The notes under the pieces are model-generated. The model searched no databases, was not told the origin of the DNA, and saw only the letters and a program-made list of their open reading frames with translations. 64,000 nucleotides of DNA from Cytophagaceae bacterium. Its GTDB lineage: Bacteria; Bacteroidota; Bacteroidia; Flavobacteriales; Flavobacteriaceae. A program made the translations under genes and the position numbers. The DNA is taken from positions 1-64,000 of the forward strand of contig PALD01000065.1 of NCBI GenBank assembly GCA_002710685.1. The letters run 5' to 3'. This document shows, piece after piece, positions 20,191 through 58,997 of this stretch (within the stretch, counting starts at the first letter, position 1; each line of letters starts with the position of its first letter).

Positions 20191-22641
20191 CTAAGACTTG
20201 TGGTGAAGTTTAATATGTGTGGTTTTTAAACCTTGTCCGGTTATCTCCACATCTATATCTGAGTTTTTCTTACCCGCTTGAATTATTGCCAATAATTTTC
20301 CGTGAAATGTTTTTCTATGATGAGCCTTGCTAGAAGTAAGATCTAGTATATCGCCATTTTCTAGACCTATAAGTTTTCCTCCACCTGTAACCGTGAAGTT
20401 CAATTCCATGTTTGCCATTGGCACCTCAATACCATTTTCATCAACGATATTTATTTCGATATGGGCAACTTCACCATCTTGTAATTCTTTTGAATCAATT
20501 GATGCATCTATTGCAACTGGTTTTCCCGCGGTTCTATAAACCTGGGAAACCTCTTTCCCTGAAGAATCATGGGCAATGACCTTTAATTCTCCTAGTTCAT
20601 AAGGAACTTGCCATACCAATTGTAGCTCATCACCAGTCAGTTTCTTTTTACCCAAAGACTTTTCATTGAGAAAAAGTTCTGCGGAAGCTGTATTCGTATA
20701 AACAACTACAGGAATTGTTTGTCCTTCTTTTCCTGGATGTGTCCAGTGTGGGAGCATATGAACCATGGGCTTATCACTCCAAATACTTTGATATAGATAG
20801 TAATTATCCGTAGGAAAGCCAGCTAGATCAAGTATCCCAAAAGGTGCTGTTCTTGCGGGCCAGCCAAAGGATTCTCCCAGATAATCAAAGGCTGTCCAGC
20901 GAAAGGCACCAAGAAAATAGGGTTTGTCCTTAGTAACGCGCCAATAATCACGAATACCCATCCTAACGATAGAATTGTCGTAGGACGATTGATAGGGAAG
21001 CTCAAATTCTGGAAAGACTTCCTTTGCCGATAGATCTGGGATTAAATATATTTTGTTTTTCATGGGCGCAAAAGATTGTCCTTTTTCCCATGGAGCTGGA
21101 AAATCACGCCTTCTATAACTGGTATGTGTTCTGTAAACGCCGCGGGTTTGATAGGTATGGGTGATTTCAGTACCAATGATAGGTTTTTCAGGATGTTTGT
21201 TATGAAAATCTTCAATAGCATCCTTGAATTCACCGTGCCCGTTCATCCCTGCTATTTCAATAGCTGTTCCCTTGCTTCCTTCTCCCTGGGTAATGGGTCT
21301 TGAATCATCTATTCTTTTTATAAAGTCAACCAGTTCATGTTGTCTCGCATCAGTAAATCCACGCACTTCATTACCTATACTCCAAAAAACAACACTGGGA
21401 TGGTTCATATCACGCTCAATAAACTCTTGCAAATCTTTTTGCCACCACTCTTCAAAATAATTCCCATAATCGAATTTGGCCTTTGCCACTTCCCAACCGT
21501 CAAAAGCTTCATCCATGACATAAAATCCCATCTCATCGCACATTTCATAAAATGCTGGCGCGAAGGGATTGTGTGTCGTACGGATGGCATTACATCCCAT
21601 TTCCTTGAGTAATTTTAACCGCCTACGCAAGACTTCCTCTGGCACGGCAGTCCCCACGGGACCTGCATCATGGTGCATGCACATCCCTTTTATGATGGTC
21701 TTTTTTCCATTTACAAAAAGACCTTTCTCTACCGAAACTTCAATAGTTCTAAAACCTATACTTGTAGTATAATTATCCAGAAGAGAACCGCTATCATCAG
21801 TTATTTGGGCCTCAAGGACGTATCTATTTTCTGGGGTTTCAGCGGACCATAAATCAATATCTTCAAGTTGAAGGGTATCCTCAATATTTTCGGTACAATT
21901 ACTTTTTAAAGTAAATTTTTCTCCTTCCAGTTTCTTGACAACCTCTCCATTTTTATCCTTTATGCTGTAATTGAATTTTATTTCCTTTGGCGAAAGCCCA
22001 TCATTTATTATTGAGGATTTTACTGCGATTGTCCCATCGTTACCATTTATGACTTTTGGCGTTGCCAAAACACCGTGACGGGTAAAATGCTCTTGGGAAG
22101 TAATCAATAATCTTACATGACGATAAATGCCCGAGCCTGTGTACCATCTACCACTTGGGGCCTTAGAATGATCGACTTTAACTGCGATTACATTTTTTCC
22201 CTCCACGAGATAATCAGTCAAATCATATTGAAAACCGATATATCCATACGGGTGGGTTCCCAGTTTTTCCCCATTGATATAAACCGTGGAGTTCATGTAA
22301 ACCCCATCAAAGAGGATACTTACCCTTTTATTTTTCCAATCATCCTGATATTCCAGCTCCTTTCTATACCAGCCAATCCCCGTGGGTAAAAAAGCTCCCG
22401 CAATACCTGCGGGATTATCTTGGGAATACTCCCCTTCTATACTCCAATCATGGGGAAGGTCAAGTTGTCGCCAATCGCTATCATCAAAGTCCTTTTTTGC
22501 AGCAATTGACACATTACCCAGGTGAAAGACCCAATCCTTATCCCAGTTAAGCTCCTCCCTTCCCTGCTCCATATTACTGGAACAGGACACAAGGAGCCAC
22601 GGAAAAACTAAAATCTTTAAAATGATCTGAAAAATCCTCAT
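20191..22641 (-). CDS. GH2 beta-galactosidase-like glycoside hydrolase, lipoprotein
   Basis: An 816-residue GH2 enzyme with lipobox LLVSC (Cys20). It has the sugar-binding (jelly roll) domain about 30-180 with LPHDWSIEGEY and GIGWYRKE, an immunoglobulin-like domain to about 300, then the TIM barrel with KGMCMHHDAG and RTTHNPF. SIGNE gives acid/base Glu425 and IIGTE gives nucleophile Glu492. After about 590 there are further beta domains, including a DUF4982-like segment (VVYTNTASAELFLNEKSLG) and an invasin/Ig-like end. GH2 members of this layout are beta-galactosidases or beta-glucuronidases; beta-galactosidase is the better guess. It ends an esterase-sulfatase-GH2 transcript, 3 bp after the esterase gene. 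Confidence 0.85.
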   Translation of the reverse strand: MRIFQIILKILVFPWLLVSCSSNMEQGREELNWDKDWVFHLGNVSIAAKKDFDDSDWRQLDLPHDWSIEGEYSQDNPAGIAGAFLPTGIGWYRKELEYQDDWKNKRVSILFDGVYMNSTVYINGEKLGTHPYGYIGFQYDLTDYLVEGKNVIAVKVDHSKAPSGRWYTGSGIYRHVRLLITSQEHFTRHGVLATPKVINGNDGTIAVKSSIINDGLSPKEIKFNYSIKDKNGEVVKKLEGEKFTLKSNCTENIEDTLQLEDIDLWSAETPENRYVLEAQITDDSGSLLDNYTTSIGFRTIEVSVEKGLFVNGKKTIIKGMCMHHDAGPVGTAVPEEVLRRRLKLLKEMGCNAIRTTHNPFAPAFYEMCDEMGFYVMDEAFDGWEVAKAKFDYGNYFEEWWQKDLQEFIERDMNHPSVVFWSIGNEVRGFTDARQHELVDFIKRIDDSRPITQGEGSKGTAIEIAGMNGHGEFKDAIEDFHNKHPEKPIIGTEITHTYQTRGVYRTHTSYRRRDFPAPWEKGQSFAPMKNKIYLIPDLSAKEVFPEFELPYQSSYDNSIVRMGIRDYWRVTKDKPYFLGAFRWTAFDYLGESFGWPARTAPFGILDLAGFPTDNYYLYQSIWSDKPMVHMLPHWTHPGKEGQTIPVVVYTNTASAELFLNEKSLGKKKLTGDELQLVWQVPYELGELKVIAHDSSGKEVSQVYRTAGKPVAIDASIDSKELQDGEVAHIEINIVDENGIEVPMANMELNFTVTGGGKLIGLENGDILDLTSSKAHHRKTFHGKLLAIIQAGKKNSDIDVEITGQGLKTTHIKLHHKS

Positions 22642-22644
22642 ATA

Positions 22645-23481
22645 TTATTCTTCACAGATAAAATTTCGGGCCCTGAGAAATTTTTCCATTTCATCCCTTG
22701 TCTCAATGTAATAATGCCCATCACCCTTTCCCTTATTGAAAAAACCATGGGTCGCATCCTTATAGAAAATCACTTCACAATTACTCCCAGCATCTTTTGC
22801 ATCCTTACAAAAATCCTTCATGGTCTGCACGGGTATATGTTTGTCATTTGTTCCTACCATAATAAGAACATCGGCCATTTTGCTTTTGTCCTGATGAAAC
22901 GGGGAAAATTGTTTGTATGCCTCACCTACCCGCTCATAACCGTAACCGTTAGGGCCATTATCAATAACAGGATTGAACAAGACCAGTCCAGAAACCTTGG
23001 TATTTATATCGAGATCATCATTAGGATCATTATATCCTTCCACGAGATCAACTGCCGCCGCTAGGTGACCCCCAGCCGAACCTCCTACAGCCACTATCCT
23101 ATTTGGGTCAATCCTGTATCTATCACTGTTTTTCTTTAAATACCTCATCGCTGACTTTGCGTCCATCAATGCGGTAAAAGGATCGGTATGATCCACTTTT
23201 GCCACCCTATACTCCACTAAGGCGCAAACCATCCCCTTGCCCGCAAAATATGCTGCCTGGGAAGAAAACTGTTTAATATCCCCTCCTGCCCAGCCACCGC
23301 CATGATAAAAGACTATCATGGGCCATCGAGTACGTTCTTTCCAGTTATCAGGAAAGACAAAGGAGATGTTGAGATCACGTGTTTCCGTTTTTTTATACAC
23401 ATCCACTTGATCATATTTTACATTTTGCGCAAGTAGACTACTTCCGATTAAAAATGTTACTATCACTATAATTTTTTTCAT
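22645..23481 (-). CDS. Alpha/beta-hydrolase, BD-FAE/acetyl-esterase-like, secreted
   Basis: A 278-residue hydrolase with a cleavable signal peptide (ending LLAQ near 19). The oxyanion segment FYHGGGWAGG (59-67) and nucleophile elbow GGSAGGH (Ser135) are clear. Asp213 (GTNDKHIP) and His245 (THGF) complete the triad. This layout is shared by the hormone-sensitive-lipase/BD-FAE group, which includes carbohydrate acetyl and feruloyl esterases. In this context it probably removes acyl groups from the glycan so that the adjacent GH2 enzymes can act. It lies 5 bp after the sulfatase gene and 3 bp before the GH2 gene. The acyl group is not known. Confidence 0.8.
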   Translation of the reverse strand: MKKIIVIVTFLIGSSLLAQNVKYDQVDVYKKTETRDLNISFVFPDNWKERTRWPMIVFYHGGGWAGGDIKQFSSQAAYFAGKGMVCALVEYRVAKVDHTDPFTALMDAKSAMRYLKKNSDRYRIDPNRIVAVGGSAGGHLAAAVDLVEGYNDPNDDLDINTKVSGLVLFNPVIDNGPNGYGYERVGEAYKQFSPFHQDKSKMADVLIMVGTNDKHIPVQTMKDFCKDAKDAGSNCEVIFYKDATHGFFNKGKGDGHYYIETRDEMEKFLRARNFICEE

Positions 23482-23486: not shown

Positions 23487-28564
<5,078 letters not shown>

Positions 28565-28702: not shown

Positions 28703-31700
28703 CTAAGAAGAAATTGAATCTTTCTCATTTTCAAAAAGATTCTTCTGAAAAGTACTGGGGGAAAAACCATACTGTTTTTTAAAACAGACCCCAAAGTAGC
28801 TCAGGTCATTAAAACCTACCATATATGCAACCTCGCTAATATGTATGCTTTTATCTTCAAGCAATTGAGCCGCCCTTCTTAAACGTATATTTTTTATAAA
28901 TTCATTAGGGGTAAGATCCAGAATGCCCTTAATCTTTCTGTAGAACATAGAATTGCTCATCCCCATATCGCTACAAAGGATTTTTACAGAGAAATCTGGT
29001 TCTGAAATATGATTTTCAACACATTCCTTTGCTTTGGACAAAAATTCTTCATCTATATTTGTTGAAACAATTTTCTCTGGTTCGAGAAAATCACCCTTGT
29101 TAAATTTTCTATGAATACTCTCTCTTTTCTTTAAAAGTGATTCTATTCTATACACTAGAACATCAAGGCTAATAGGTTTTGTAAAATATGTGTCAACACC
29201 AATTTCATAACCTTTTTTTCTTTCATCATCATCATCATGAGCGGTGACAATTACAACCGGTATATGGCTTGTACTAACGTTGTTTTTTATTGATTCGCAA
29301 AGCTTATGGCCATTCATGCCTGGTAATTGAAGGTCAGAAACTATAAGGTCAATATCTTCACTATTTGCCAGTTTTAAAGCGTTTTCAGCATCAAGGGATG
29401 CAAAGACTTTATAATAATCCTGTAAATATTCCTTGACAAGATTGAGATAATCTTCATTATCCTCTACTATCAGGACTGCCTTACCAGAATATTCAACATC
29501 ATCAAGAACATTAATTTCATCTTCTTTTTCAAGGGCTGAAATATTTTCTGCATTGATTAGGCCCGAATTGTTCTGAACGCCTTCCAGATTTAATACATAC
29601 CTTCCCACAGGCAGTTCTAACTCAAATTGTGTACCCACTCCTTCTTCACTTTCAACCCTGATAATCCCTTGTTGAATCTCTACAAGATGTTTAGTCAATG
29701 CTAATCCTATACCAAGACCGTCAGCATACCCTTTTACTGATTTAGGACGATAATATCTATTAAAAATTCTCTGAAGATCGTGGTCTGATATACCTTTGCC
29801 TGTATCATTTACCTTGATTATAAGACGTTTTCCGCCATTATGGCCTATAATATTTGCAATTAAATTAACTATACCCTCCCTAGGGGTATATTTGAATGCA
29901 TTAGATAAAATATTATTGATACAGATTTCTAGTTTTTCTACATCCACGTATCCTTTGAGGTTTTCGGCCATAACTACCCTAAAATCAATGTCTTTTTCTT
30001 GAGCAAGAATGGAGTAATCTTTACTGATTTCTTGGATTATTTCTGAAATGTTTTTCCAAGAAGGTGCATAATCCATATTTCCTGACTCTGCTTTCCTAAA
30101 ATTTAGCATCTGCTTTATTCGATCATTAAGTACTTTTATATTACGTCTAAGGATTTTCTGCTCTTCAAAACCATCATCATTATTATTATTTATTTTTTTA
30201 TCTGAAAGAATTGCTAGAACAGAAAGTGGAGTTAATAATTCATGAGATAAGTTTGTGAAAAACTGTAGCTTGAATTGATTAAGTTTTTCAGACTTTAACC
30301 TCTCGATATTCTCAATATTTAAAGCCTGTTTTATTATAATCTTTCGCCTATACAAGATAAAAATAGAAGATATAATACCCAGAATAATTAGTACATAAAT
30401 TGTGAAGGCCCACCAAGTAAAATATGGTGCTGTTTCAACAAAGATTGGAAGTGTTAAGCCATCCTTTGACCATTGACCATTGGCATTTGTCGCTTTGACC
30501 TGAAAATCATATTCTCCAGGTCTCAAGTTCACATAAGTAGCCGTCCTATTGTTTGCGCTAACAAATTTCCAATCTTCATCTAGTCCCTCTAATTTGAATG
30601 CATAGTTTAGGTTATCAGCATCCCTAAAATCCATTGAGGCAAAAGAAAGAGTTATTATATTATCATCATAATTAATCACCAGAGGATTGTTTTTAGAGTA
30701 TCCCTTATACCCGAACAAGTTTTTCTTATTAGTATGGAGATTTGTAAATGTCAATGAGGGTTTGACGTAATCATCTTTGATCTTAATTGGATCAATAATA
30801 TTGAATCCGTGGTGTCCCCCAGCGTAAACCTTACCTGTATTATCCTTAAACAACGAACCTTTTATAAAATAGTTGGCTTGAAGACCATTGCGAGTTGTGT
30901 AAAAATTGGGTACTGGTTTACCAGAAAGGTTATCTATATAAATCAAGCCCTTATTCGAGGTTGCGATCATATTACCTTTTTCATCTTCCTCAAAAGAATG
31001 AACCGAAAGGTTTTTTATGCCTGGCAAAAGGTCAGGGTTTACTAGAATACTATCTTCACCATAATTTTCCAGGCCAGTGTTTGTCCCTACCCACAGTCTA
31101 TCCCTTGAATCGACAAATAGTGTGTTGACGGAAACATTTCCCTCTACGGGACGATCAATCCTTTTAAAGGATTGTTCTTCAAGCGGAATAGAATATACAC
31201 TTGCACTTGACTTGAATATGTCACCTTTATTAGTTGAAAGATAAAGGTATCCACTTTTGCTAATTGTAAAGTCAGAATATGAGGTTTTGGTCCCATCCTT
31301 TTTGTTCAAGGGATTGATATTACGAAGTCGATTATCATCGAACTTCTCGCCTTGTTCCACCCTAAATAATCCTTTATTTGACATTGCCCAGACATTATTG
31401 TCCAGGTCAACCTGGACTTTAAATACCTCTTTGAATACTTGGTTTTTCTTTATCCTTCCAGAAACCGATACGAATTTTTTCCTTTTTACATCATATTTAA
31501 TAAGTCCTTTAAACCTTCCTCCAATCCATAGGTTTCCGTTTTTGTCCCATGTGAAATTCTTGATGGTATTTAGACCTAAATCGAACAATGACTCGTAATC
31601 TTCAACCTTTTCATAAGGCATAAATGTTCTTTTATTGAGATCATAAATCCCAAACCCCATACTTTGAACCCCCATCAGCAATCTTCCCATAGGATCTTTT

Positions 31701-32863
31701 GTGAAACTATGAATGGATTGGCTTTTTCTAGGGTCTTGTGCCGTAATATTGTAAAGCGGAAAATTATTGCGTCTCAAATCGAACTTATTAACTCCTCCTC
31801 CAAAGATTGCAAGCCACATAAGCCCAGACCTATCTCTGATTATCCCCCTTATTTCATTGCTTACCAGCTGATCATTCCTTTTTTTACAGTCATAATTCAC
31901 AAATTCAAAAGCCTTATTATCCTTATGCCTAATTATGCTTAGGCCAAATGGAGTCCCAATCCAGATATCTCCATTTATATCGCTATTTAAATCATATATA
32001 ATATTGCTTGGCAGACATGTCGATTTGTCGTCACCCTGACCAAACCACTTAATGATCTGAGGAACTTTTGGGTTAGAAATATCAAGAACGTAGAGACCTT
32101 CATCCCAGGTTCCAACCCAGAGGAGCCCGTTCTCATCCTCAAAGAGCGAATTCAGCACATTATGTTTGTCAGTTAATGGACCCCTATCAAAATCATTAAA
32201 AACTTCAAAGGTATTATTGTCAGGAATGTAGCGGCCCAGTCCCTTTCCCCATGTTGCCAACCATACATCCCCGGAAGAACTGATCATGATATCCCTAAGA
32301 CCTCTGGTATTTTCTTCCTTTATGATAGAATTATGGTGAAGCGAAATACCCGATTCAATATTATAGATGAATATACCTTTATTTCCTCCAAACCAGATTT
32401 TTCCACTAGGATCATATTCTATAGCAATACTTGATCCCGAATAGGTATCATCAAATATTTCACTTCCTTTTTTTATTAATTCAACGGAAGTACTTAGCTT
32501 ATCATAGCTAAATATACCAGCGGAACAGGAAATCCATAAATGATCATTTTTATCTTGGACTAAACCAAAATATCTGGCTTTTCCAATAATTTCCTTACTA
32601 TTGGGAACAAGTGTTTCAAAATTCAAGATTTCATATCCGTCATATCTAAATAGTCCACCATTTGTACCAATCCATAAGAAACCGTCATTATCCTGATATA
32701 CAAAATTACTCTCATCGCTATCCAATCCATTTTCTGAAGTAATGCCGGAGTATATCAAATTCTTCTCATCAATACTTTGAAAACTACATAGCGAAATCGT
32801 TATATGTAGTAATAAGTAATATTTGAATAATGGTCTTAGCATGAAGGTTTTTCTGAAATTCAA
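28703..32863 (-). CDS. Hybrid two-component system sensor/regulator (HTCS)
   Basis: A 1386-residue single-protein sensor and regulator. A signal/anchor segment is followed by a periplasmic two-component beta-propeller with many repeats of the FLWIGTNGGLFRYD type (about 35-720). A Y_Y_Y domain (about 735-800, YAFKLEGLDEDWKF) precedes a membrane helix at about 817-838. The cytoplasmic part has the HisKA box SHELLTPL (His874), an HATPase with NNILSNAFKYTP and GLGIGLAL, a receiver with VSDLQLPG (Asp1177), and a C-terminal AraC-type DNA-binding domain ending in SYFGVCFKKQYGFSPS. It should sense an oligosaccharide in the periplasm and activate the PUL. It lies in the middle of the locus, which marks the flanking genes as its regulon. 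Confidence 0.95.
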   Translation of the reverse strand: MNFRKTFMLRPLFKYYLLLHITISLCSFQSIDEKNLIYSGITSENGLDSDESNFVYQDNDGFLWIGTNGGLFRYDGYEILNFETLVPNSKEIIGKARYFGLVQDKNDHLWISCSAGIFSYDKLSTSVELIKKGSEIFDDTYSGSSIAIEYDPSGKIWFGGNKGIFIYNIESGISLHHNSIIKEENTRGLRDIMISSSGDVWLATWGKGLGRYIPDNNTFEVFNDFDRGPLTDKHNVLNSLFEDENGLLWVGTWDEGLYVLDISNPKVPQIIKWFGQGDDKSTCLPSNIIYDLNSDINGDIWIGTPFGLSIIRHKDNKAFEFVNYDCKKRNDQLVSNEIRGIIRDRSGLMWLAIFGGGVNKFDLRRNNFPLYNITAQDPRKSQSIHSFTKDPMGRLLMGVQSMGFGIYDLNKRTFMPYEKVEDYESLFDLGLNTIKNFTWDKNGNLWIGGRFKGLIKYDVKRKKFVSVSGRIKKNQVFKEVFKVQVDLDNNVWAMSNKGLFRVEQGEKFDDNRLRNINPLNKKDGTKTSYSDFTISKSGYLYLSTNKGDIFKSSASVYSIPLEEQSFKRIDRPVEGNVSVNTLFVDSRDRLWVGTNTGLENYGEDSILVNPDLLPGIKNLSVHSFEEDEKGNMIATSNKGLIYIDNLSGKPVPNFYTTRNGLQANYFIKGSLFKDNTGKVYAGGHHGFNIIDPIKIKDDYVKPSLTFTNLHTNKKNLFGYKGYSKNNPLVINYDDNIITLSFASMDFRDADNLNYAFKLEGLDEDWKFVSANNRTATYVNLRPGEYDFQVKATNANGQWSKDGLTLPIFVETAPYFTWWAFTIYVLIILGIISSIFILYRRKIIIKQALNIENIERLKSEKLNQFKLQFFTNLSHELLTPLSVLAILSDKKINNNNDDGFEEQKILRRNIKVLNDRIKQMLNFRKAESGNMDYAPSWKNISEIIQEISKDYSILAQEKDIDFRVVMAENLKGYVDVEKLEICINNILSNAFKYTPREGIVNLIANIIGHNGGKRLIIKVNDTGKGISDHDLQRIFNRYYRPKSVKGYADGLGIGLALTKHLVEIQQGIIRVESEEGVGTQFELELPVGRYVLNLEGVQNNSGLINAENISALEKEDEINVLDDVEYSGKAVLIVEDNEDYLNLVKEYLQDYYKVFASLDAENALKLANSEDIDLIVSDLQLPGMNGHKLCESIKNNVSTSHIPVVIVTAHDDDDERKKGYEIGVDTYFTKPISLDVLVYRIESLLKKRESIHRKFNKGDFLEPEKIVSTNIDEEFLSKAKECVENHISEPDFSVKILCSDMGMSNSMFYRKIKGILDLTPNEFIKNIRLRRAAQLLEDKSIHISEVAYMVGFNDLSYFGVCFKKQYGFSPSTFQKNLFENEKDSISS

Positions 32864-32980: not shown

Positions 32981-35095
32981 TTAAATATGAAAGAAAGCTT
33001 GTGGGGAAACTTCAACGGAAGAACTTTTAGTGTTCCATTTAAGTTTCAAATTTTTTAAATCAATTGCTCTTTCACCTTGAATGTAGAGTTTTATAGGATG
33101 AAATCCTTTGGCAAGGTTTACAGGATAATTTCTTTGCTTATTCCCAAAGTCTCCGTCTATCGCCGTTATGTCGTGAACCCTCATAAAAGTTTTGTTATCC
33201 GAATCTATAGAGAAAGTATATAATCCATTTTCTGGAACATCAATATAACCCTCGAACACTACAAGATTTCCTTTAAAATTTTTACCATTAATTGTTTTGA
33301 CATCTTCCTTATTGAGTGGATTATCATCTATCGAAGAAATCCACGGTAATACATTATTGTAGGATTTTACAAGGAGTCCAATTTTAAGATTATCCTTTTT
33401 TACATCAGGTACAATAGCATTATCATAAGTCCTTGGTGCTGAAGTATCGGTGTGACGCATCTGCAAAACCTTTTCCTTCATTTTTTTCTGAAGGTCAGCA
33501 TTTTCAGAAGCTATATTATTTCTTTGACCTGGGTCTTTGAGAACATTATAGATCTTAAAATCATCACTTTCTGATTGAATGTTATATCTCACTCCTACCA
33601 TATCCTTCATTCTGATCATCTGCATTTGCTTACGCTTGGTATCCTGATGGTTATCACCAAATTCTGGATATTCTGGTGTTGAGCCTGAATGGAAATATTC
33701 AACATATATCTTGCTGTCCTTTTCATTCTTTTTTCCTGTAAGTGAAGATAAAATAGAAACCCCATCAGACTTTATGGGCGCTGCAATCCCTGCCGCTTCA
33801 GCAAACGTGGGCATCCAGTCGTAAGAAATACTTGGACTTTTCACAACACTCCCTGCGGGTATTGTTCCTGGCCACATTGCAAGAGTAGCCATTCTCACGC
33901 CTCCTTCATAGCAATCCCTCTTGATTCCATCAAAATGTGCGTAGTTGTTAAAGAATTCGGGGGTATAATTTTCATATTCCTTTGGAAGGTAGGATTCCCT
34001 GGAGGGGCCGTTATCAGAAGTAAAGATTACCAATGTATTTTTATCAATATTCAAATCCTTCAACAATTGGATGATATCCCCAACTTGATTATCAATACGC
34101 TTATTTACTGTTGCGAAACGTTTATATGTATCTGGCCAAGGAACCTCATCGGTTGATGAATCACTGTCATCGTCATAGGTCTGATCTTTATAGGCGGGAT
34201 CCATATATGAATCTACTTCTCCTGAAGCTGTGTTGATCATCTCTCCAGGTGTACCTAACCATTGCAGGCCACCATTTAAACCAGAACCTTTGGGATATTC
34301 CTGTGTGGGCAATTCAAGCACCGCATGTGGTGTATCATAAGCTAGGTACATAAAGAAAGGCCTATCCTTTTCATTTTTTTGATGATCGATAATATATTTT
34401 TTAGCCCTGGCCGTAAAAAGGTCACCCGTATAGCATTTATCAAGATCATTTGTAACTTCCTTATAGTCCTCATAAACTTCCTTTGCGCCTCTATAAACAC
34501 CTTCCTTAGGATAATGTTCGTGACCGTCCACATGTCTTATATAACCATAGTAGGAATCAAATCCACGCTTTAATGGATGAGCGGGCCAGTTGGGTGCCTC
34601 AGCCTTTCCTTGAAGTCCCCATTTACCAATAGCGACTGTTGAATATCCAGCCTCGTGCATAACTGTCCCTAATGTGTAATTATCTTCAAGAGCCTTATCA
34701 AATTGATTATCCCTTACGTTAGATTGTCCTTGGCTGACCCCTAAAAGTAATGATGCCCTTGAGGGCGCACATACGGGGGCCGCGGAATAATGCTGGGGCA
34801 ACCGTGCCCCCTCACTTGCCATTTTATCAAGATTAGGGGTAAGAAGCCAGGGTTCACTTCTATCTCCCATTTCTTTTCTTTCATTTTGAAACAAAACACC
34901 TAAATCTCCGTAACCAAAATCATCCGTTAGTATAAAAATGATATTCGGCTTTGGGGAATTCTTGTCCTGTATGGCATTCTCTTCTGATTTTTGAGAATTA
35001 CATGAAAGTGATAAAAATATAGATATTATCAAAAGGGGTTTAATTGTTTTTCTTATAGAGAAAAAAAATCGAGGAATGGAACAATATTGAAACAT
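32981..35095 (-). CDS. S1 sulfatase with C-terminal PA14-like domain, lipoprotein
   Basis: A 704-residue sulfatase. The lipobox LSLSC places the lipidated Cys at 32. ILTDDFGYGD (Asp58/Asp59) and C-A-P-S-R at Cys109 are canonical, with GKWGLQG instead of the usual GKWH near residue 160 and FTSDNGP later. A ring-like extra segment (about 65-85, NERKEMGDRSEPW) precedes TPNLDKMA. From about 560 it carries an extra beta domain (FEGYIDVPENGLYTFSIDSD, FHPIKLYIQG) that resembles PA14/carbohydrate-binding modules. The domain suggests attachment to a sugar chain. It is longer than most sulfatases because of this module. Its gene lies upstream of the HTCS gene on the same strand. Confidence 0.87.
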   Translation of the reverse strand: MFQYCSIPRFFFSIRKTIKPLLIISIFLSLSCNSQKSEENAIQDKNSPKPNIIFILTDDFGYGDLGVLFQNERKEMGDRSEPWLLTPNLDKMASEGARLPQHYSAAPVCAPSRASLLLGVSQGQSNVRDNQFDKALEDNYTLGTVMHEAGYSTVAIGKWGLQGKAEAPNWPAHPLKRGFDSYYGYIRHVDGHEHYPKEGVYRGAKEVYEDYKEVTNDLDKCYTGDLFTARAKKYIIDHQKNEKDRPFFMYLAYDTPHAVLELPTQEYPKGSGLNGGLQWLGTPGEMINTASGEVDSYMDPAYKDQTYDDDSDSSTDEVPWPDTYKRFATVNKRIDNQVGDIIQLLKDLNIDKNTLVIFTSDNGPSRESYLPKEYENYTPEFFNNYAHFDGIKRDCYEGGVRMATLAMWPGTIPAGSVVKSPSISYDWMPTFAEAAGIAAPIKSDGVSILSSLTGKKNEKDSKIYVEYFHSGSTPEYPEFGDNHQDTKRKQMQMIRMKDMVGVRYNIQSESDDFKIYNVLKDPGQRNNIASENADLQKKMKEKVLQMRHTDTSAPRTYDNAIVPDVKKDNLKIGLLVKSYNNVLPWISSIDDNPLNKEDVKTINGKNFKGNLVVFEGYIDVPENGLYTFSIDSDNKTFMRVHDITAIDGDFGNKQRNYPVNLAKGFHPIKLYIQGERAIDLKNLKLKWNTKSSSVEVSPQAFFHI

Positions 35096-35256: not shown

Positions 35257-36441
35257 TTAGATAGATATTACAAAGTTGGTCGTCAGGGTGTTTTCTGGGG
35301 ATATAAGGATATTATCAACATTCATGGACAAATCAATTTTATCTGGATAATCCCAAATAGGTCCAATCAATATCGACAATTTACCCTGAGACTTTAAATG
35401 ATCCATTTGTAGGGGAAGATTCTGAATTACATAACCAGAAGAAAATTTCAAATCAAATGTGGCATCCGTTTTATTTGTAATCTGGACCTCCAGCATAGGA
35501 GAACCTTTATAAATGACTTTTTTTGAATTAAGGGAAACTGCATTCTTAAAAAAAGGCTCTGCTTCCCTAATCCTACCTATAAGTAAATTATTATAATAAA
35601 GCATTGTCCGTCCATCCCGTATTGCCTCTTCTACCGCATCAGCTGATTTTGATTTTGCAAAAACAAGCGTCATGGGACGATGTGAATCCTTGTACCCAGA
35701 AGCTATATCATGGTGCGCATCTGAATTTGCAAACATGGTCAAGTTATACTTCTCAGCAATTCTATGCGCCATTGAATTATATCGTGTAGAGTTTACAACC
35801 TCAACCCCTCCCAAGATTCCCATATCCAACAATTCTTCATGAAATGGGGTAAATAAGTCCTTACTTCCTGCTTTATCCCAATCATAGTTAGGCATATGTG
35901 TAGGGTGATTATATATAACAAAACCACCCTGTTTCTTGACTTCAAGAAACGGAGCCATAAGATCTCTTTTCTTGATATCATCCTTCATGATAAATTTATG
36001 ATGGGTATCCTTCATATAACCATAGGGAAGATTATTCAAATCCTCTAGAAAGAGCGCATTGTTATGAAAAGGTGGTACACGAGGCGAGATTTCAGCCCCT
36101 TTTATTAAAAGTACGTCATATTTCTGTGCTTCTTCCTGAGCAATCTCAAAGGCTCGTTCCCTATCATTTTTTATTTCATCAGGATATCCCTCATAATCGA
36201 TATGATCGGTAATTGCAATGACATCTAAACCATCATGTTGAGCTTCCCTAACCCTGAATGTGGGCCAGACATGACCATCAGAGAATACTGTGTGCATATG
36301 AAAATCACATTTCAAGGTTTTATAACCTGGAATTGATGATAGTGCAATCTTATTATTTAGTTTTCTTTCTTGCCCCGTCATAAGGGAATAGAAAAATATT
36401 AAGTAAACCAATAGCCTATATTTTTTCATTGGGCTTTTCAT
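35257..36441 (-). CDS. PHP-domain phosphodiesterase-like protein (Sb-PDE type), copy 1
   Basis: A 394-residue secreted protein with a signal peptide (about 1-23, ending MTGQ; Met5 is an alternative start). Metal-binding PHP motifs are all visible: DFHMH (His48, His50), AITDH (Asp79, His80), IKGAEISP, YNHPTHM and NSDAHHD. Proteins with this layout in Bacteroidota are annotated as Sb-PDE-type phosphodiesterases; PHP proteins hydrolyse phosphoesters using two or three metals. A beta-rich C-terminal segment of about 110 residues follows. It overlaps the paralogous gene upstream by four bases (ATGA), so both are made together. Role in the PUL is unknown; removal of a phosphoester from the substrate is a reasonable guess. 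Confidence 0.75.
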   Translation of the reverse strand: MKSPMKKYRLLVYLIFFYSLMTGQERKLNNKIALSSIPGYKTLKCDFHMHTVFSDGHVWPTFRVREAQHDGLDVIAITDHIDYEGYPDEIKNDRERAFEIAQEEAQKYDVLLIKGAEISPRVPPFHNNALFLEDLNNLPYGYMKDTHHKFIMKDDIKKRDLMAPFLEVKKQGGFVIYNHPTHMPNYDWDKAGSKDLFTPFHEELLDMGILGGVEVVNSTRYNSMAHRIAEKYNLTMFANSDAHHDIASGYKDSHRPMTLVFAKSKSADAVEEAIRDGRTMLYYNNLLIGRIREAEPFFKNAVSLNSKKVIYKGSPMLEVQITNKTDATFDLKFSSGYVIQNLPLQMDHLKSQGKLSILIGPIWDYPDKIDLSMNVDNILISPENTLTTNFVISI

Positions 36442-37631
36442 TTTGTAGGTACGGGAATTTTAAATTCCGTTTTTAAAGAATTATCAGGTGATACAAGAAT
36501 ACTCTGAATTTCAATTTCAAGGTTTATTTCTTTGGGTTTGTCCCAAAGAGGTCCTATCATGATCTCCGTATTATCATGGGGTATTAATGTAGTTCGCTGC
36601 ATTGGTAGGTTTTGAACTATATAATCTGAATGAAAGGTAATCTTATAGGGAACATCTGTTTTATTTAAAATTTTGACCTTGAGTATAGGCATGTTTTTAT
36701 ATTTATCCATTTTCGCTTCAAGCTTTATAGCACTCTTGAAAAAAGGCTCTGCCTCCCTTATCCTGCCTATCAGGAAATCTTTATGATAGATCATTGTCCT
36801 TCCGTTCAAAATAGCATCTTTGACTGCTTCTTCCGTCTTCGATTTTGCAAAGACAAGTGTCATGGGCCTATGCGAATCCTTAAAACCAATATCATGATGT
36901 GCATCAGAATCAGCAAACATTGTGAGTCTATATTTTTCAGCTATTCTGTGCGCCATTGAGTTATAGCGACCACCATTTACCACCTCAACTCCTCCTAAAA
37001 TTCCCATTTCTAAAAGTTCTTTATGAAAATCTGTAAAGACATCCTTATTCTCCGCCTTTTCCCAATTATAGAATTGCCTTAGATGCATGGGGTGATTATA
37101 GAAAACAAAACCACCTTGTCTTTTTACTTCAAGAAATGGAGCCATGAGTTCTTCCCTGGTCGCGTTCTTCTTCATAACATATTTATCCCCCATCTCTAGG
37201 TAATCGATGGGGATATCATCAGCTTTTTGTATGAAAATGGCATTATTATGAAATGGTGGTACTCCAGGTGAAATTTCGGCACCCTTAATAATTAAAACTT
37301 GATTTTTAGGTTGGGTTTTGGCTATATCATAACTAATATCCTTTTTAATAACATCATGATCAACATCATAATCATGACTAACCCTAGAGTTGCCCGTATG
37401 TTCTGTAAGAGCAATTATATCAAGTCCATCATTTTCAGCTTCACGCACTCTAAAGGTGGGCCATACATGGCCATCAGAAAAAACGGTGTGCATATGGAAA
37501 TCGCCCTTGAGTGTTATATATCCAGGTATATCAGCAAGTATTATTTTATCATTTCTCTCAAGTTCCTGGGCTTCCGCCAAAAGTGAAAACATTAAAAAAT
37601 AATAGAAGTATTTATAATATTTTGGAACCAT
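36438..37631 (-). CDS. PHP-domain phosphodiesterase-like protein (Sb-PDE type), copy 2
   Basis: A 397-residue paralogue of the next gene, colinear along its whole length with long identical blocks (for example the TVFSDGHVWPTFRVREA region). A signal peptide ends LLAEAQ near 22. PHP motifs are DFHMH, IKGAEISP, YNHPMHL and DSDAHHD. The second motif reads ALTEH (Glu77) where copy 1 has AITDH, a substitution at a metal-site position. It also has a short insertion (NSRVSHDYDVDHD) after that motif. The pair looks like a tandem duplication with divergence. The gene is the first of the minus-strand series and is divergent from the PhoD-like gene across a 254-bp region. Confidence 0.75.
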   Translation of the reverse strand: MVPKYYKYFYYFLMFSLLAEAQELERNDKIILADIPGYITLKGDFHMHTVFSDGHVWPTFRVREAENDGLDIIALTEHTGNSRVSHDYDVDHDVIKKDISYDIAKTQPKNQVLIIKGAEISPGVPPFHNNAIFIQKADDIPIDYLEMGDKYVMKKNATREELMAPFLEVKRQGGFVFYNHPMHLRQFYNWEKAENKDVFTDFHKELLEMGILGGVEVVNGGRYNSMAHRIAEKYRLTMFADSDAHHDIGFKDSHRPMTLVFAKSKTEEAVKDAILNGRTMIYHKDFLIGRIREAEPFFKSAIKLEAKMDKYKNMPILKVKILNKTDVPYKITFHSDYIVQNLPMQRTTLIPHDNTEIMIGPLWDKPKEINLEIEIQSILVSPDNSLKTEFKIPVPTK

Positions 37632-37885
37632 TCTATGATACGTTAAACCTTTCTATCAATATTAACCATATCAATTTGCGAAGGGTATAATATTTTCAGC
37701 AAAAACTATGATTAATTCTGCATCTATATTAGAACTGCTCGTTTTTGGAGAATCCGAAAAGATTAATATTTAATAATTTCTGAACATAATTTACCAGTCG
37801 CAAAACAATTTTTTAAACATATTTGACTGAAGGAATCTTTCTTCACATACTCTTTATAAGACAATCGCTTCAGAAAAATAATACC
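37632..37885. promoter_or_regulatory. Divergent intergenic region between PHP and PhoD-like genes
   Basis: An AT-rich region of about 250 bp lies between the minus-strand phosphodiesterase pair and the plus-strand PhoD-like gene, so it must carry promoters for both. I see no strong palindrome or an exact TAnnTTTG box on the plus strand. The plus frame is open from 37823, but the residues before 37886 do not look like a secretion signal. Confidence 0.5.
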
Positions 37886-39484
37886 ATGAAAAAAGATGCA
37901 GGTAAGAAATTCAAGGATTCAATCAACCGAAGGGATTTTATAGAAATTTCCACTAAAGGTATTGGATTGTTAACTGGGGCAACCCTCCTGGGTAACTTAG
38001 CTTTTGCCAGTGAACCCTATGATCAAATATCCAGGGAAGATGATTTGATGCTTCTAGATGATTATCCATTCAAACTAGGTGTTGCTTCTGGCGATCCTAA
38101 TGAGAACAGTGTTGTTTTATGGACCCGTCTTGTTACCAATCCACTGATGGTTGATGGCAACATGCCTTTCAGATCGCAAAAGGTCAAATGGGAAATCTCA
38201 AAAAATAAATCCTTTGATGATATTTTGCATAAGGGCAAAGTGAAGACAGATCCTGAATGGGCGCATTCTGTACATATTGAAGCTGAAGGTCTGGAACCTG
38301 ATTCAATATATTATTATCGTTTTAGAACTGGAACATATGTGAGCCCAATCGGTAAAACTAAGACCACTCCAAAACGAGATGATAATTTAAACGAATTAAA
38401 ATTTGCCTTTCTCTCCTGCCAAAGCTATCCTGGAGGTTATTATAATGCTTATGATCATCTAATCGATGAAGACCTCGATGTTATATTTTTTCTTGGGGAT
38501 TATATATATGAAGGCCAGGGCGGCGAAGGACCTAGAGGCTTAAAACATTCACCATGGAAGGAGTTGGAAAATCTGGAAGATTACAGGATGCGCTATGCCC
38601 AATACAAAAGCGATCCAGCCCTTCAAAAAGTGCATGCAGCATTCCCATGGTTTGTAACTTTTGATGATCATGAAGTTAAAAATAATTGGGGAGGGGAAGA
38701 TGATCCTGCCTTTCTGAAGAGGCGGGCAGCCGCATTTAAGGCTTATTATGAACATATGCCTCTTAGAAGATCATCAGTTCCACAAAATGAACATATTCAG
38801 ATATATAGAAAATGTTCTTATGGAAATCTTGTTGACTTCAATATTCTAGATACTCGTCAATTTCGTTCAAAACCGGCCTGCGGCGGCGGAAGACAAACTT
38901 TGAATTGTCCAGACCTCATTGATCCATCGCGCACAATTTATGGGGAGGAACAAGAGAGATGGTTGTTCAACAATCTAAAGACATCCACTAAGAAATGGAA
39001 TATACTTGCCAACCAAGTCATAATGGCTTTCAAGGATGATATCAATGGTGAGGGAATAGGAGTTGGAATTGATAGATGGGATGGATACATGGCTAGTCGA
39101 AGAAGGCTCTTTGACACAATCAAAACTAATGAAATTAATAATGTTATTGTAATAACAGGAGATTCCCATAAAAATTGGGTCAATAATCTTCACGATGACT
39201 TCCTTGATCTAAACTCACAGATTCTCGCTACAGAATTTGGTGGAACGAGTATTACTTCCGGCGGTAATGGGACCGCAAAATTTGGAGAGAACATCCAGAA
39301 GGAAAATCCCCATATCAAATATGTTGGAAATCAAAGAGGTTATGTAAGGTGTAAACTAACTCCAGAAGAAATTAAAATGGATTATCGGGTTGTTCCTTAT
39401 ATAGATAAAAAGGGATCACCCATTACCACCACTAAGTCCTTTCATGTTATGAATGGAATTCCTGGGGCAGTTGAGAACCAATAG
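37886..39484 (+). CDS. PhoD-like alkaline phosphatase/phosphodiesterase, Tat-exported
   Basis: The frame is open from 37823. I place the start at the ATG at 37886, because it directly gives MKKDAGKK followed by the twin-arginine motif NRRDFIEIS and a hydrophobic Tat core; this yields 532 residues. PhoD-family features are an N-terminal Ig-like domain (PFKLGVASGDP, VVLWTRL) and the metal-site segments FLGDYIYEG, TFDDHEVKNNWGG, LDTRQFRS and ITGDSHKNW. Known members are Fe/Ca phosphodiesterases or phosphatases working in the periplasm. The next gene, a sulfatase, starts 12 bp later, so phosphate and sulfate removal are co-transcribed. The substrate is not known. Confidence 0.88.
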   Translation: MKKDAGKKFKDSINRRDFIEISTKGIGLLTGATLLGNLAFASEPYDQISREDDLMLLDDYPFKLGVASGDPNENSVVLWTRLVTNPLMVDGNMPFRSQKVKWEISKNKSFDDILHKGKVKTDPEWAHSVHIEAEGLEPDSIYYYRFRTGTYVSPIGKTKTTPKRDDNLNELKFAFLSCQSYPGGYYNAYDHLIDEDLDVIFFLGDYIYEGQGGEGPRGLKHSPWKELENLEDYRMRYAQYKSDPALQKVHAAFPWFVTFDDHEVKNNWGGEDDPAFLKRRAAAFKAYYEHMPLRRSSVPQNEHIQIYRKCSYGNLVDFNILDTRQFRSKPACGGGRQTLNCPDLIDPSRTIYGEEQERWLFNNLKTSTKKWNILANQVIMAFKDDINGEGIGVGIDRWDGYMASRRRLFDTIKTNEINNVIVITGDSHKNWVNNLHDDFLDLNSQILATEFGGTSITSGGNGTAKFGENIQKENPHIKYVGNQRGYVRCKLTPEEIKMDYRVVPYIDKKGSPITTTKSFHVMNGIPGAVENQ

Positions 39485-39496: not shown

Positions 39497-40936
39497 ATGA
39501 AAAAAGTATTTTATCTACTACTAATAGTACTCTTCACACTCTCATGCAAAGAGTCTAAGATTATTAATAATATTTCAAATTCTCATAAGAACAATGTACT
39601 TTTCATTTTAGTGGATGATCTTGGTTATAAGGATCTTGGCTGTTATGGCAGTGAATTTTATGAAACGCCCAATCTTGACAGGCTCGCTTCAGAGGGTGTA
39701 ATGTTCACAAACGCATATACTCCTAATCCTGTATGTTCTCCCACGAGGGCTTCCATAATGACAGGTAAATATCCATCACGTGTGAGAATTACTGATTGGA
39801 TAAAAGGTTATAAAGCCAAGGATCCCAAATTAAAAACCCCAGACATCAACTATAATTTGCCCTTGGGGGAAGTTACACTGGGAGAAATGTTTAAGGAAAA
39901 TGGATATAAGACCTTCTTCGCTGGTAAATGGCATCTTGGAGATGAGGGATATTATCCCGAAAATCAAGGTTTTGATATAAATTTAGGAGGTGCCCAATAT
40001 GGATCCCCCCCAGGTGGTTATTATTCCCCGTATAAAAATACGAAACTTGTAGATGGCCCCGATGGTGAATATTTACCAGATCGGCTGGCATCAGAGACTA
40101 TAAAGTTTTTTTCAGAAAATAAAGAAAAACCCTTTTTGGCATACTTATCTTTCTATTCAGTACACAGACCTATTGAAGCTGATAAGAAATCTATCGAAAA
40201 GTTCAAGAAAAAGAAAAATGCTTTAACTGACTCTGACCCACATATTGTGAAAGAACATCAATCCTATACCAGAACCGTTCAATCTGATGATGAATATGCT
40301 TCAATGGTTTATGCGATGGATAGAAACGTGGGAAGAGTATTGAAAGCTCTTGATAGTCTAAACCTGACAGATAATACTACAATTATTTTTACATCTGACA
40401 ATGGAGGGCTTTCGACCAGCAGGGGAACAAATCCTGCACCTACATCTGTCTATCCCTATCGAGCTGGAAAAGGATGGGTTTACGAAGGTGGTCTAAAAGT
40501 ACCTATGATAATCAAAAGTCCTTCGAACAAGAACTCGAGAAAAATTGACGAACCCGTAATCAGCATGGATTTGTTCACGACTCTTATAGATCTTAATAAT
40601 CTAAAATATCCTGATAGACCTAAAGTGGACGGGCATAGTCTAAAGCCTATTTTAATAGGAAATGATAGTGATTTTAATAAGCATGAAACATTATTATACC
40701 ATTATCCACATTATCATGGAAGCGGTTGGAAACCAGGTACAGCCCTCAGGTATAAAGATTGGAAAATAATTCACTTTTATGAAGATGATACGTTTGAACT
40801 CTACAATATAAAAGATGATATACAGGAAGAAAACGATCTCTCTAAGTCGAATCCCCAACAACTTGAAAAATTAAAGGAAATACTTGCAAAGACACTACAG
40901 GAAACAGACTCTCCTATCCCTGAAAGAATCAAATAA
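39497..40936 (+). CDS. S1 sulfatase, lipoprotein
   Basis: A 479-residue sulfatase with lipobox FTLSC (Cys17). ILVDDLGYKD (Asp40/Asp41) is followed by C-S-P-T-R at Cys80, GKWHLGDEG near 150 and FTSDNGG near 300. It resembles the sulfatase at 7450 in its DLG-Y/W-KDLG-YGSE-Y start and in its GGYYSPY / PDRLA segments, suggesting the same S1 subfamily. It is the last gene of the short plus-strand operon with the PhoD-like enzyme and is followed by a strong hairpin. Confidence 0.88.
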   Translation: MKKVFYLLLIVLFTLSCKESKIINNISNSHKNNVLFILVDDLGYKDLGCYGSEFYETPNLDRLASEGVMFTNAYTPNPVCSPTRASIMTGKYPSRVRITDWIKGYKAKDPKLKTPDINYNLPLGEVTLGEMFKENGYKTFFAGKWHLGDEGYYPENQGFDINLGGAQYGSPPGGYYSPYKNTKLVDGPDGEYLPDRLASETIKFFSENKEKPFLAYLSFYSVHRPIEADKKSIEKFKKKKNALTDSDPHIVKEHQSYTRTVQSDDEYASMVYAMDRNVGRVLKALDSLNLTDNTTIIFTSDNGGLSTSRGTNPAPTSVYPYRAGKGWVYEGGLKVPMIIKSPSNKNSRKIDEPVISMDLFTTLIDLNNLKYPDRPKVDGHSLKPILIGNDSDFNKHETLLYHYPHYHGSGWKPGTALRYKDWKIIHFYEDDTFELYNIKDDIQEENDLSKSNPQQLEKLKEILAKTLQETDSPIPERIK

Positions 40937-41003: not shown

Positions 41004-42599
41004 CTACTTCAGTTCTAAGGGCTTCACATCTTTGCTGTATTCCCCTACAATGGATTGATATTCATTGTAAAGTTTTTTCAGTTTGTCCAGTTCCGCGTCA
41101 GCTAGGTTGTCTTTTTGCCCAGGATCATTCTTGATATTGTACAACTGAAAATCATCACTGTTTCCTGATTCTATATTAACTTGATCAAAAACTTGAGGAC
41201 CTTTATAAGGAGGTATCATGATATAATCTCCCATTCGCAGAGCAGTTCTTCCACTTGCCTCAACGATCAGCTTATCCCTGCCAGCATTACTTTTACCCAT
41301 AAATGAATCAAGAATATCCTTGCTGTCAGTTTTTTGTAAATCGGTATTTGCTTCGATTAAATTCTTAAGGGAGCTTAAAATATCCATTTGAGATACCAGG
41401 GCATCGCTGACTTTTGGCTTGATTTTACCTTCCCAATACACTGCAAAAGGAACTTTGGTTCCAGCCTCAAACAAACTGTATTTTCCGCCCCTAAGATCTC
41501 CCCATGGCGTGTGATCTCCTAGTTTCTCTACCGCATTATCATAATAACCATCATTGAGAACGGGACCATTATCACTTGAAAATATTATCAAGGTATTTTC
41601 GAGCAAACCTTCCTCTCTAAGGGTTTTCATAAGTTCACCCACGCACCAGTCCGCCTCAAGAAGAACATCTCCCCTAGCCCCCATTCCAGACTTCCCTTCA
41701 AATTGTGGTGATGGAGTCCTGGGAACATGCGGTTGTTGAAGAGCGTAATAAAGGAAAAAGGGCTCGTTCTTATTTTCACTAACGTAGTCTTTGGCATGAT
41801 TCAGAAAATTTTCTGCCATTTCCTCATCCTTCCATTTTGCTGTTTCACCACCTTTCATAAAACCAATCCTGGGAATACCATTCACAATTGAGTTATTATG
41901 CCCGTGATGCCATTTCAGCTTTAAGAGTTCAGGATTATCTTTTCCCGTGGGTTCACCTTCAAAATTCTTTTTATAATTGACCTCAATCGGATCATCTGGG
42001 TCAAGATTGGCGACTCTCCCATTGTCAATATATACGGTGGGAACCCTATCCTGCGTTGCAGCCATGATATAACTGTAATCAAAACCCACTTCATTAGGTC
42101 CTGGTCTTATCCTATCATTCCAATTTACATTTCCATTCCCTAACCCTAGGTGCCATTTACCTACAATTCCAGTCTTATATCCTTCCTTTCTGAGCATTTT
42201 CGGGATTGTCACTTGGGCAGTATCGATTAGTAACGGAGCGGTACCGGGAAGGATTTTTGCATCTTCGTTTCTCCATGGATAAGTTCCTGTCAACAATGCA
42301 AACCTACTGGGAGTGCAGGTCGCGGAAGTCGCATAACCATTTGTGAACTTCACACCACCGTTAACTAGGCTGTCAATACTTGGTGTACTGATTTCGGTTG
42401 CTCCGTATGAACTTAGATCACCGTAACCCAGATCGTCAGCATAGATTATAATTATATTAGGCTTCTTTTCTTTTTCTTCGGAAGTGTCCTTCCTTCTATC
42501 CATGCATCCGACAAATGACATAAAAATGATTAAAAGAATACAGGAGCGAAACATTGAAGTATATATTATATTGATTTTCATTGTTTTTAAAATTATCAT
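41004..42599 (-). CDS. S1 sulfatase, lipoprotein
   Basis: A 531-residue sulfatase. The lipobox SFVGC puts the lipidated Cys at 32 of the longest frame; the Met at residue 7 (42581) is the likelier start, since it gives the usual MKINII signal. Metal motif IYADDLGYGD (Asp55/Asp56), C-T-P-S-R at Cys95, GKWHLGLG near 147 and FSSDNGP near 345 are canonical. The DDLGYGDLSSYGA start and the long insert with EVGFDYSYIMAATQDRVP resemble S1_15-type enzymes, but I hold that lightly. It is transcribed alone towards the plus-strand operon, with its own upstream region carrying a repeated 9-mer (42618-42700). Confidence 0.88.
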   Translation of the reverse strand: MIILKTMKINIIYTSMFRSCILLIIFMSFVGCMDRRKDTSEEKEKKPNIIIIYADDLGYGDLSSYGATEISTPSIDSLVNGGVKFTNGYATSATCTPSRFALLTGTYPWRNEDAKILPGTAPLLIDTAQVTIPKMLRKEGYKTGIVGKWHLGLGNGNVNWNDRIRPGPNEVGFDYSYIMAATQDRVPTVYIDNGRVANLDPDDPIEVNYKKNFEGEPTGKDNPELLKLKWHHGHNNSIVNGIPRIGFMKGGETAKWKDEEMAENFLNHAKDYVSENKNEPFFLYYALQQPHVPRTPSPQFEGKSGMGARGDVLLEADWCVGELMKTLREEGLLENTLIIFSSDNGPVLNDGYYDNAVEKLGDHTPWGDLRGGKYSLFEAGTKVPFAVYWEGKIKPKVSDALVSQMDILSSLKNLIEANTDLQKTDSKDILDSFMGKSNAGRDKLIVEASGRTALRMGDYIMIPPYKGPQVFDQVNIESGNSDDFQLYNIKNDPGQKDNLADAELDKLKKLYNEYQSIVGEYSKDVKPLELK

Positions 42600-46378: not shown

Positions 46379-46479
46379 CCCTCTAAATGTTGGGTTGTCT
46401 AAAAATCCATGTGGGTTAATAAAGGCTAAAACTCCTGTTCCATTTTTTTCTATAAAATGTTGTCCATATCGTAAAAACT

Positions 46480-48129: not shown

Positions 48130-48178
48130 TCTATCGTTTATCTTATTTCTTAAAAATAGAAATCTTTATACAATGAAG

Positions 48179-51239: not shown

Positions 51240-51333
51240 AAGGTGGTTATTTTTTAATATTATCTAGGCAAAAAGCATATTTTTTTATTTTTTTCACAAA
51301 AATGAGCTTTTTATAAAGAATATTTTTTCTTTG

Positions 51334-51347
51334 CTAAAACGTTTTAG
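51334..51347. promoter_or_regulatory. LacI-type operator palindrome upstream of susC
   Basis: CTAAAACGTTTTAG is a perfect 14-base palindrome with the central CG step typical of LacI/GalR operators. It lies 25 bp before the susC start and next to TATGTTTA (51348-51355), a 7-of-8 match to the Bacteroidota -7 box TAnnTTTG. Binding of the adjacent LacI-family protein here could block or shift transcription of the operon. Confidence 0.7.
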
Positions 51348-51371
51348 TATGTTTATCATATTATTAAATGT

Positions 51372-54560: not shown

Positions 54561-54574
54561 AAAATAAAAAAGAA

Positions 54575-56383: not shown

Positions 56384-56394
56384 ACCTTGTACCC

Positions 56395-57045: not shown

Positions 57046-57088
57046 AATCAGGATAAATTCTGTAAAAACATATTTTAAAAATTAAATC

Positions 57089-58906: not shown

Positions 58907-58941
58907 AATAAGTATTTAGTTTTAGTTTTTCAAATTTTGCT

Positions 58942-58979: not shown

Positions 58980-58997
58980 TTATTTAACACACTTTAA

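Follow-up and report, generated by a model that had tools for sequence, protein, structure and literature searches.

Why would three phosphoesterase genes stand in the middle of a locus that otherwise looks equipped to dismantle a sulfated polysaccharide? The question is posed by 64,000 nucleotides of DNA (the window) from a Cytophagaceae bacterium placed by GTDB in the Flavobacteriaceae (assembly GCA_002710685.1, contig PALD01000065.1, positions 1 to 64,000 of the forward strand), in which two tandem PHP-domain genes, PHP1 and PHP2, and a divergently read PhoD-family gene lie between genes for S1 sulfatases. The answer that we tentatively prefer, at somewhat less than even chances, is that PhoD, PHP1 and PHP2 form a phosphodiester-cleaving branch of a polysaccharide utilization locus (PUL) for a sulfated glycan.

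Under this scheme the SusCD pairs would bind and import a sulfated glycan, probably one containing galactose, which bears phosphodiester or phosphomonoester groups as well. In the periplasm, an Fe/Ca-type PhoD and two PHP-DUF5001 enzymes would cut phosphodiester links or strip phosphate groups, the S1 sulfatases would take off the sulfates, the glycoside hydrolase family 2 (GH2) enzymes would then split the sugars, and a hybrid two-component sensor/regulator (HTCS) would sense a breakdown product. We infer what the enzymes do, where in the cell they act and that there is co-regulation, and likewise that the substrate has a galactan backbone and carries phosphate. Phosphate esters on sulfated polysaccharides have been little studied, and models of PULs rarely include phosphodiesterases. 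If the scheme is right, a single locus would unite the release of carbon, sulfur and phosphorus from one glycan, and some of the PhoD and PHP genes commonly assigned to phosphate starvation would instead encode glycan enzymes.

Results

Three phosphoesterases in a sulfatase-rich locus

The original prediction, made from the nucleotide sequence, placed a tandem pair of PHP genes and a divergently read PhoD gene between sulfatases; this order is confirmed (Table 1), and the setting is a locus with HTCS, SusCD and GH2 genes. PHP2 and PHP1 both read leftwards and overlap by 4 bp, with sulfD 161 bp beyond PHP1, on the flank opposite PhoD. The close junction predicted for PhoD also holds: its stop codon is followed after 12 bp, on the same (plus) strand, by the start of sulfE. 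The window carries two SusCD pairs, two GH2 enzymes, six S1 sulfatases and the HTCS as regulator, the gene content of a PUL. The HTCS gene is two genes from PHP1, and the nearest SusC genes are about 15 kb beyond PHP1 in one direction and 12 kb beyond PhoD in the other. All six sulfatases keep the C-x-P/S-x-R motif, and the top PDB match of sulfE (6ust) is named as an N-acetylgalactosamine 6-sulfate sulfatase. Given the sulfatase types and the two GH2 enzymes, one of them a LacZ-type beta-galactosidase, the substrate would probably be a sulfated, galactose-containing glycan. SusCD pairs, HTCS, S1 sulfatases and GH2 enzymes are common to the window and to sulfatase-rich PULs of Bacteroidota in general, from which it differs by the three added phosphoesterases.

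PhoD, a predicted exported phosphodiesterase

The PhoD reading frame (37823-39484, plus strand) opens at a TTG codon at 37823, and the likely start is an in-frame ATG at 37886. The stretch INRRDFIE follows this ATG; we take it to be of the twin-arginine type, and export by the Tat system is probable. The protein matches the Pfam PhoD family with 362 bits, and its residues 79-541 align with Bacillus subtilis PhoD (PDB 2yeq) with 508 bits. All nine positions checked are kept (C180, D207, Y210, D265, D266, N271, N272, D436 and H438); seven of them are named and mutated in PMC4223295, and the other two, Y210 and H438, would also be ligand positions. With a PhoD domain, the Fe/Ca ligands and the Cys iron ligand, the protein belongs to the Cys subfamily of the PhoD family, and is a probable phosphodiesterase. 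Homology, ligand positions and probable Tat export thus liken it to B. subtilis PhoD; unlike that protein, it sits in a PUL and adjoins a sulfatase.

PHP1 and PHP2, paralogues of the 3e38 type

By their domains, PHP1 and PHP2 (59% identical), which the original prediction had labelled Sb-PDE-like, are classed as PHP-DUF5001 proteins of the type of PDB 3e38 (BVU_3505), with which they have the two-domain architecture and fold in common. PHP1 is above the Pfam cut-offs for PHP, PHP_C and DUF5001; PHP2 is above those for PHP_C and DUF5001 and slightly below that for PHP (23.6 vs 26.4 bits). The N-terminus of PHP2 is hydrophobic by eye and probably carries a signal peptide. For a structure model of PHP2 (pLDDT 84.8) the best PDB match is 3e38, followed in order by TM0559, RNase AM, a Bifidobacterium protein and an AMP-bound amidohydrolase. 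The CehA/McbA metallohydrolase model NF038032 (cut-off 80 bits) is passed by neither of the two PHPs (71.5 and 63.6 bits). Nine positions, which we take to be of the PHP metal-ligand type, are invariant in 18 aligned PHPs including PHP1 and PHP2, in an alignment where five clade B rows are clipped near their C-termini by the coordinates chosen. The PHP and PhoD motifs on which the prediction had leaned are thereby retained. Clade A, the branch of the PHP tree that holds both window proteins, differs from 3e38 by an extra stretch (about residues 141-155 of PHP2), and reads GxEIS where 3e38 and five aligned clade B rows read GxEIT.

The PHP clade is tied to SusCD

In a tree of 85 rows, both window PHPs group with 13 others in clade A (15 rows, support 100/100, long branch). 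Gene contexts draw on the best 80 loci of one genome-collection scan, beyond which further loci exist; locus L008 is in the tree and omitted from the context count, and L007 is counted as its longer version, L102. SusC is found within 5 kb in 12 of the 13 clade A loci listed, the remaining one (L015) being a 6-kb contig, and SusD in 11 by profile, or 12 if L017 is counted by Pfam; in nine of the 13, genes for an extracytoplasmic function (ECF) sigma factor and FecR stand beside SusC. For clade B, comprising the 69 other PHP loci listed, the corresponding count for SusC is 7/69. The SusC and SusD profiles were partly trained on clade A loci, which favours that clade; with window sequences alone, SusC is still found in 11/12 loci of clade A and 7/68 of clade B. 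PHP clade A is tied to SusCD, not to sulfatases.

A further phosphodiester-type enzyme is present in seven of the 13 clade A loci: NAGPA phosphodiester glycosidase in L010, L011, L013 and L014 (by custom profile only in L011 and L013), EEP in L016 and L021, and PLD, calcineurin-type and GDPD enzymes in L017. The four loci with NAGPA are ECF-FecR-SusCD loci in their own right, and possibly represent a system, without nearby sulfatases, that acts on phosphodiester glycans or is of the PUS type described for Flavobacterium.

Relatives of the window PhoD

Canonical PhoD is sparsely distributed. With the window protein as query, matches are found in 2/299 family genomes at E<=1e-80 and 2/395 phylum genomes at 1e-100, and a strong Pfam PhoD match (E<1e-98) in 11/199 family genomes, each count including the window's own genome. 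The closest relative found, at L099, is 51% identical and is part of an ECF-FecR-SusC-SusD-PhoD-GDPD series. At the ten other canonical PhoD loci neither SusC nor SusD reaches 100 bits within 5 kb, and a sulfatase lies that close only in L101. The context count for PhoD and PhoD870 (below) ignored matches under 100 bits, and so omits the TonB receptor of L138, encoded 219 bp from canonical PhoD on the opposite strand (65 bits by profile, with Pfam in agreement), as well as the decayed sulfatase of L174. Four loci, L134, L138, L160 and L180, are clipped by contig ends.

A sister subfamily of PhoD pairs with sulfatases

PhoD-family proteins of 840-910 amino acids (about 870), here called PhoD870, show a different neighbourhood. 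Sample 1 consists of 11 of the 12 matches in family genomes other than our own with open frames of this length, and was chosen by length alone; the twelfth was moved to sample 2, which has 16 loci, 15 of them from the phylum sample, and includes shorter relatives. A sulfatase lies on the same strand within 300 bp in 6/11 loci of sample 1 and 7/16 of sample 2, or 13/27 in total, while SusC or SusD is found within 5 kb in 7/11 and SusCD in 2/16, respectively. For comparison, 1.1% of the bases of the window's genome, the only one in which the background was measured, lie within 300 bp of a sulfatase. The binomial tails (6e-19 at 1.1%, 1e-10 at 5%) are indicative only, as the loci are not independent; genome G133 supplies three of them, and G215, G319 and G641 two each.

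Some of these sulfatases resemble those of the window. In L143, L146 and L148, the genes for ECF, FecR, SusC, SusD, PhoD870 and a sulfatase stand in a row, and the sulfatase is 66-67% identical to sulfF; these compact loci make the idea of a joint substrate directly testable. The next genes on the same strand in L143 and L148, starting about 280 bp further on, encode a MatE transporter and a Cys/Met-type pyridoxal phosphate enzyme. Sulfatases like sulfD (46-55%) occur near PhoD870 in L152 (one gene away), L175 and L178, and sulfatases like sulfE (40-42%) beside it in L179, L180 and L181, while those of L149 and L152 are 49% identical to sulfB and 48% to sulfC. The same-strand sulfatases of L153, L182 and L184 are merely 24-30% identical to any window sulfatase; L184 has a sulfE-type gene (52%) on the other strand. 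L174 is counted as a miss and has a decayed sulfF-like gene directly downstream of PhoD870. Other neighbours of PhoD870 are GH20, GH95 and an agarase-CBM/GH42-like enzyme. No PHP gene was found in the 27 loci, and profiles for PHP, NAGPA, EEP, GDPD and canonical PhoD, the five families searched, reveal no further phosphodiesterase there. PhoD870 has no NCBIfam match in any of the four members scanned.

It is conceivable, if rather doubtful, that PhoD-fold metalloenzymes, most clearly PhoD870, regularly accompany S1 sulfatases in many Bacteroidota. They would form a small SusCD-PhoD-sulfatase system for molecules with both sulfate and a PhoD-cleavable ester; these could be sulfated glycans or glycolipids with phosphodiesters, or even sulfate esters whose cleavage needs no formylglycine. 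The window would then hold a large PUL into which a canonical PhoD and two PHPs had been drawn to do the same job.

Elsewhere in the window's genome there are two further genes with weaker matches to the PhoD family, each in a SusCD locus. One, a PhoD870 (C68:155616-158225; L103:8617-11229), comes immediately after SusC-SusD and is followed by two GH43-like genes. The other, on the window's own contig (G000:C64:84193-86256; L093:2193-4256), belongs to an ECF-FecR-SusC-SusD-GH38-GH3 locus, and its PhoD-family product has a LamG-like domain at the C-terminus. In L174, the sulfatase remains (L174:7684-8462) stand beside an intact PhoD870 and a remnant of SusD.

Discussion

Similar sulfatases adjoin PhoD proteins of two subfamilies, and PHP clade A lies in loci that join SusCD to phosphodiesterases; a substrate with both sulfate and phosphodiester would explain both. 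The proposed phospho- and sulfo-glycan branch is therefore sustained in part, by the SusCD loci with phosphodiesterases around PHP clade A and L099 and by the pairing of PhoD870 with sulfatases. The part that fell is the linkage of PHP and canonical PhoD themselves to sulfatases, and the trio is a single case.

Several observations weigh against a phosphodiester-cleaving branch. The original prediction would have these genes conserved next to sulfatases. A sulfatase is found within 5 kb of PHP in only 1/13 clade A loci (L100; 2/13 within 10 kb) and 5/69 clade B loci, where 4.7% of the bases of the window's genome, with its 35 sulfatase matches, lie as close to one. PHP genes as standing neighbours of sulfatases are rejected on these counts. 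Two clade B loci are exceptions: in L027 PHP is followed by a sulfatase after 1 bp, and in L102 (6346-12146), from a genome of the same family, it lies among three sulfatases, with no SusCD match in 20 kb. Canonical PhoD fares no better, with no sulfatase within 300 bp at any of 11 loci, L099 included, and no canonical PhoD match occurs within 10 kb of PHP in the 82 PHP loci listed. PhoD870, which does adjoin sulfatases, has His or Gln at the N271 position and is a sister subfamily rather than canonical PhoD. Among the searches made, the set of PHP1, PHP2, PhoD and sulfatase was seen only in this genome. PHP was sought in 196 genomes of the order at 1e-20, 395 of the phylum at 1e-80 and 13 of the genus at 1e-10, own genome included, and the genus search found it in one of 13. 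NAGPA phosphodiester glycosidase, present in several clade A loci, is not found in this genome. The PHP clade A loci and L099 may themselves be of the PUS type, since PUS loci too combine SusCD and phosphodiesterases with genes for ECF and FecR. Finally, the assembly has a contamination estimate of 8.8%.

Two further ideas were rejected. No second copy of the entire locus came to light: there are few other PHP or PhoD matches, and the set is absent at L006-L008 and L099-L102 (L009 being left out). As a marker of the branch sulfE failed likewise, to the detriment of the glycan reading, since none of the 20 loci of its closest homologues (of 72 matches, own included) holds PHP or PhoD.

An explanation nearly as likely as a glycan branch is that the trio is a PUS-like set for acquiring phosphate from nucleic acids, lipid head groups or other organic phosphates, and lies among sulfatases by chance. 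PUS/PusCD loci of Flavobacterium, as described in PMC8115612, combine SusCD-like pairs with phosphodiesterases and are induced by phosphate depletion, and in the gene table of that paper PUSI, PUSII and PUSIII include genes for ECF sigma and FecR. The PHP clade A loci and L099 closely resemble them, and ECF and FecR genes do not discriminate between the two explanations because the published PUS loci carry both. Scavenging would also fit the nearest functionally named PHP folds, which by entry title act on RNA or bind AMP, and the ten canonical PhoD relatives that have no link to SusCD. The window, unlike the Flavobacterium loci, has an HTCS as its nearby regulator, six sulfatases and GH2 enzymes; the words PHP, sulfatase and HTCS do not appear in the text of PMC8115612. 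Two Pho-box-like patterns are unmatched in the divergent intergenic region (37632-37822), a weak point against scavenging, as a Bacteroidota box is not established. Over the whole window, TGTCA-type repeats (43, vs a shuffle mean of 55.7) are not above chance; TTACA-type repeats are, with 13 (mean 7.3), a count reached in 1 of 100 shuffles. Only the HTCS, the 12-bp coupling of PhoD to sulfE and the pairing of PhoD870 with sulfatases elsewhere favour the glycan over phosphate supply.

The same pairing could mean instead that PhoD and PhoD870 are formylglycine-independent sulfoesterases in a phosphoesterase fold, whose targets are sulfate esters or else sulfated or phosphorylated links of an unusual kind. 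This would suit the changed N271 position of PhoD870, its missing NCBIfam match and its loci free of the profiled phosphodiesterases. The window PhoD, however, shares its ligand positions with a known phosphodiesterase, L099 pairs PhoD with GDPD, and to our knowledge there is no precedent for such a sulfoesterase of the PhoD fold; we regard the idea as improbable. Hardly more probable is an accidental neighbourhood of horizontally gathered genes without a common pathway. The trio was seen in one genome only, and G+C is 0.35-0.37 over 28-44 kb vs 0.44 over the remainder of the contig as retrieved, with a stretch of replication and restriction-modification (R-M) genes next door; lateral gathering is possible because of this drop in G+C and the contamination estimate. 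Against it speak the operon-like spacing, with its 4-bp overlap and 12-bp gap, and the sulfatases of the sulfF, sulfD and sulfE types that adjoin PhoD-family genes in other Bacteroidota.

In the open-licence literature we found no paper on DUF5001, on PHP domains with sulfatases in PULs, on PhoD with phosphorylated substrates in PULs or with SusD and organophosphate, on teichoic acid in PULs, or on alkaline phosphatase with sulfatases and phosphodiesterases in SusD-bearing PULs, and we do not claim that the association is unpublished. Papers that mention both phosphodiester glycosidase and SusC look unrelated. In a genome paper (PMC7477175), the terms PhoD, SusD and sulfatase stand in separate sections.

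Other features of the window

Table 1. Genes of the sulfatase-rich locus, by position in the window
Gene	Position	Strand	Assignment	Basis
sulfA	5552..7423	-	S1 sulfatase, S1_8-type	PDB match
sulfB	7450..8934	-	S1 sulfatase, S1_16-type	PDB match
SusD 1	9928..11700	-	SusD-type lipoprotein	
SusC 1	11705..14761	-	SusC-type receptor	
SusD 2	14786..16624	-	SusD-type lipoprotein	
SusC 2	16635..19835	-	SusC-type receptor	
GH2	20191..22641	-	GalA/GalB-like	under family cut-off
Esterase	22645..23481	-	alpha/beta-hydrolase esterase	
sulfC	23487..25406	-	S1 sulfatase, S1_8-type	PDB match
GH2	25403..28564	-	LacZ-type beta-galactosidase	above cut-off
HTCS	28703..32863	-	hybrid two-component sensor/regulator	
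sulfD	32981..35095	-	S1 sulfatase with PA14 domain	top PDB match 9s8a
PHP1	35257..36441	-	tandem paralogue of PHP2	Pfam, tree
PHP2	36438..37631	-	PHP phosphoesterase with C-terminal DUF5001 Ig-like domain, clade A	Pfam, PDB 3e38, model, tree
PhoD	37886..39484	+	probable Tat-exported PhoD-family phosphodiesterase, Cys subfamily	Pfam, ligand positions
sulfE	39497..40936	+	S1 sulfatase	top PDB matches 6ust and 9fo1 (S1_16)
sulfF	41004..42599	-	S1 sulfatase	top PDB match 7ozc, S1_15 entries close behind

The PUL ends in a pair of DUF1501 and DUF1800 genes (window 1319-3902). A second SusCD locus, led by a LacI gene and on the plus strand, occupies 50211-62520 and includes a BSP peptidase and an F5/8-type C protein. 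Between it and the sulfatase PUL lies a stretch of about 32% G+C (44900-49090) with reading frames for a Type ISP-like specificity protein and an N6 methylase and with Rep_1, a gene for rolling-circle replication; it may be an integrated mobile element whose R-M gene is split.

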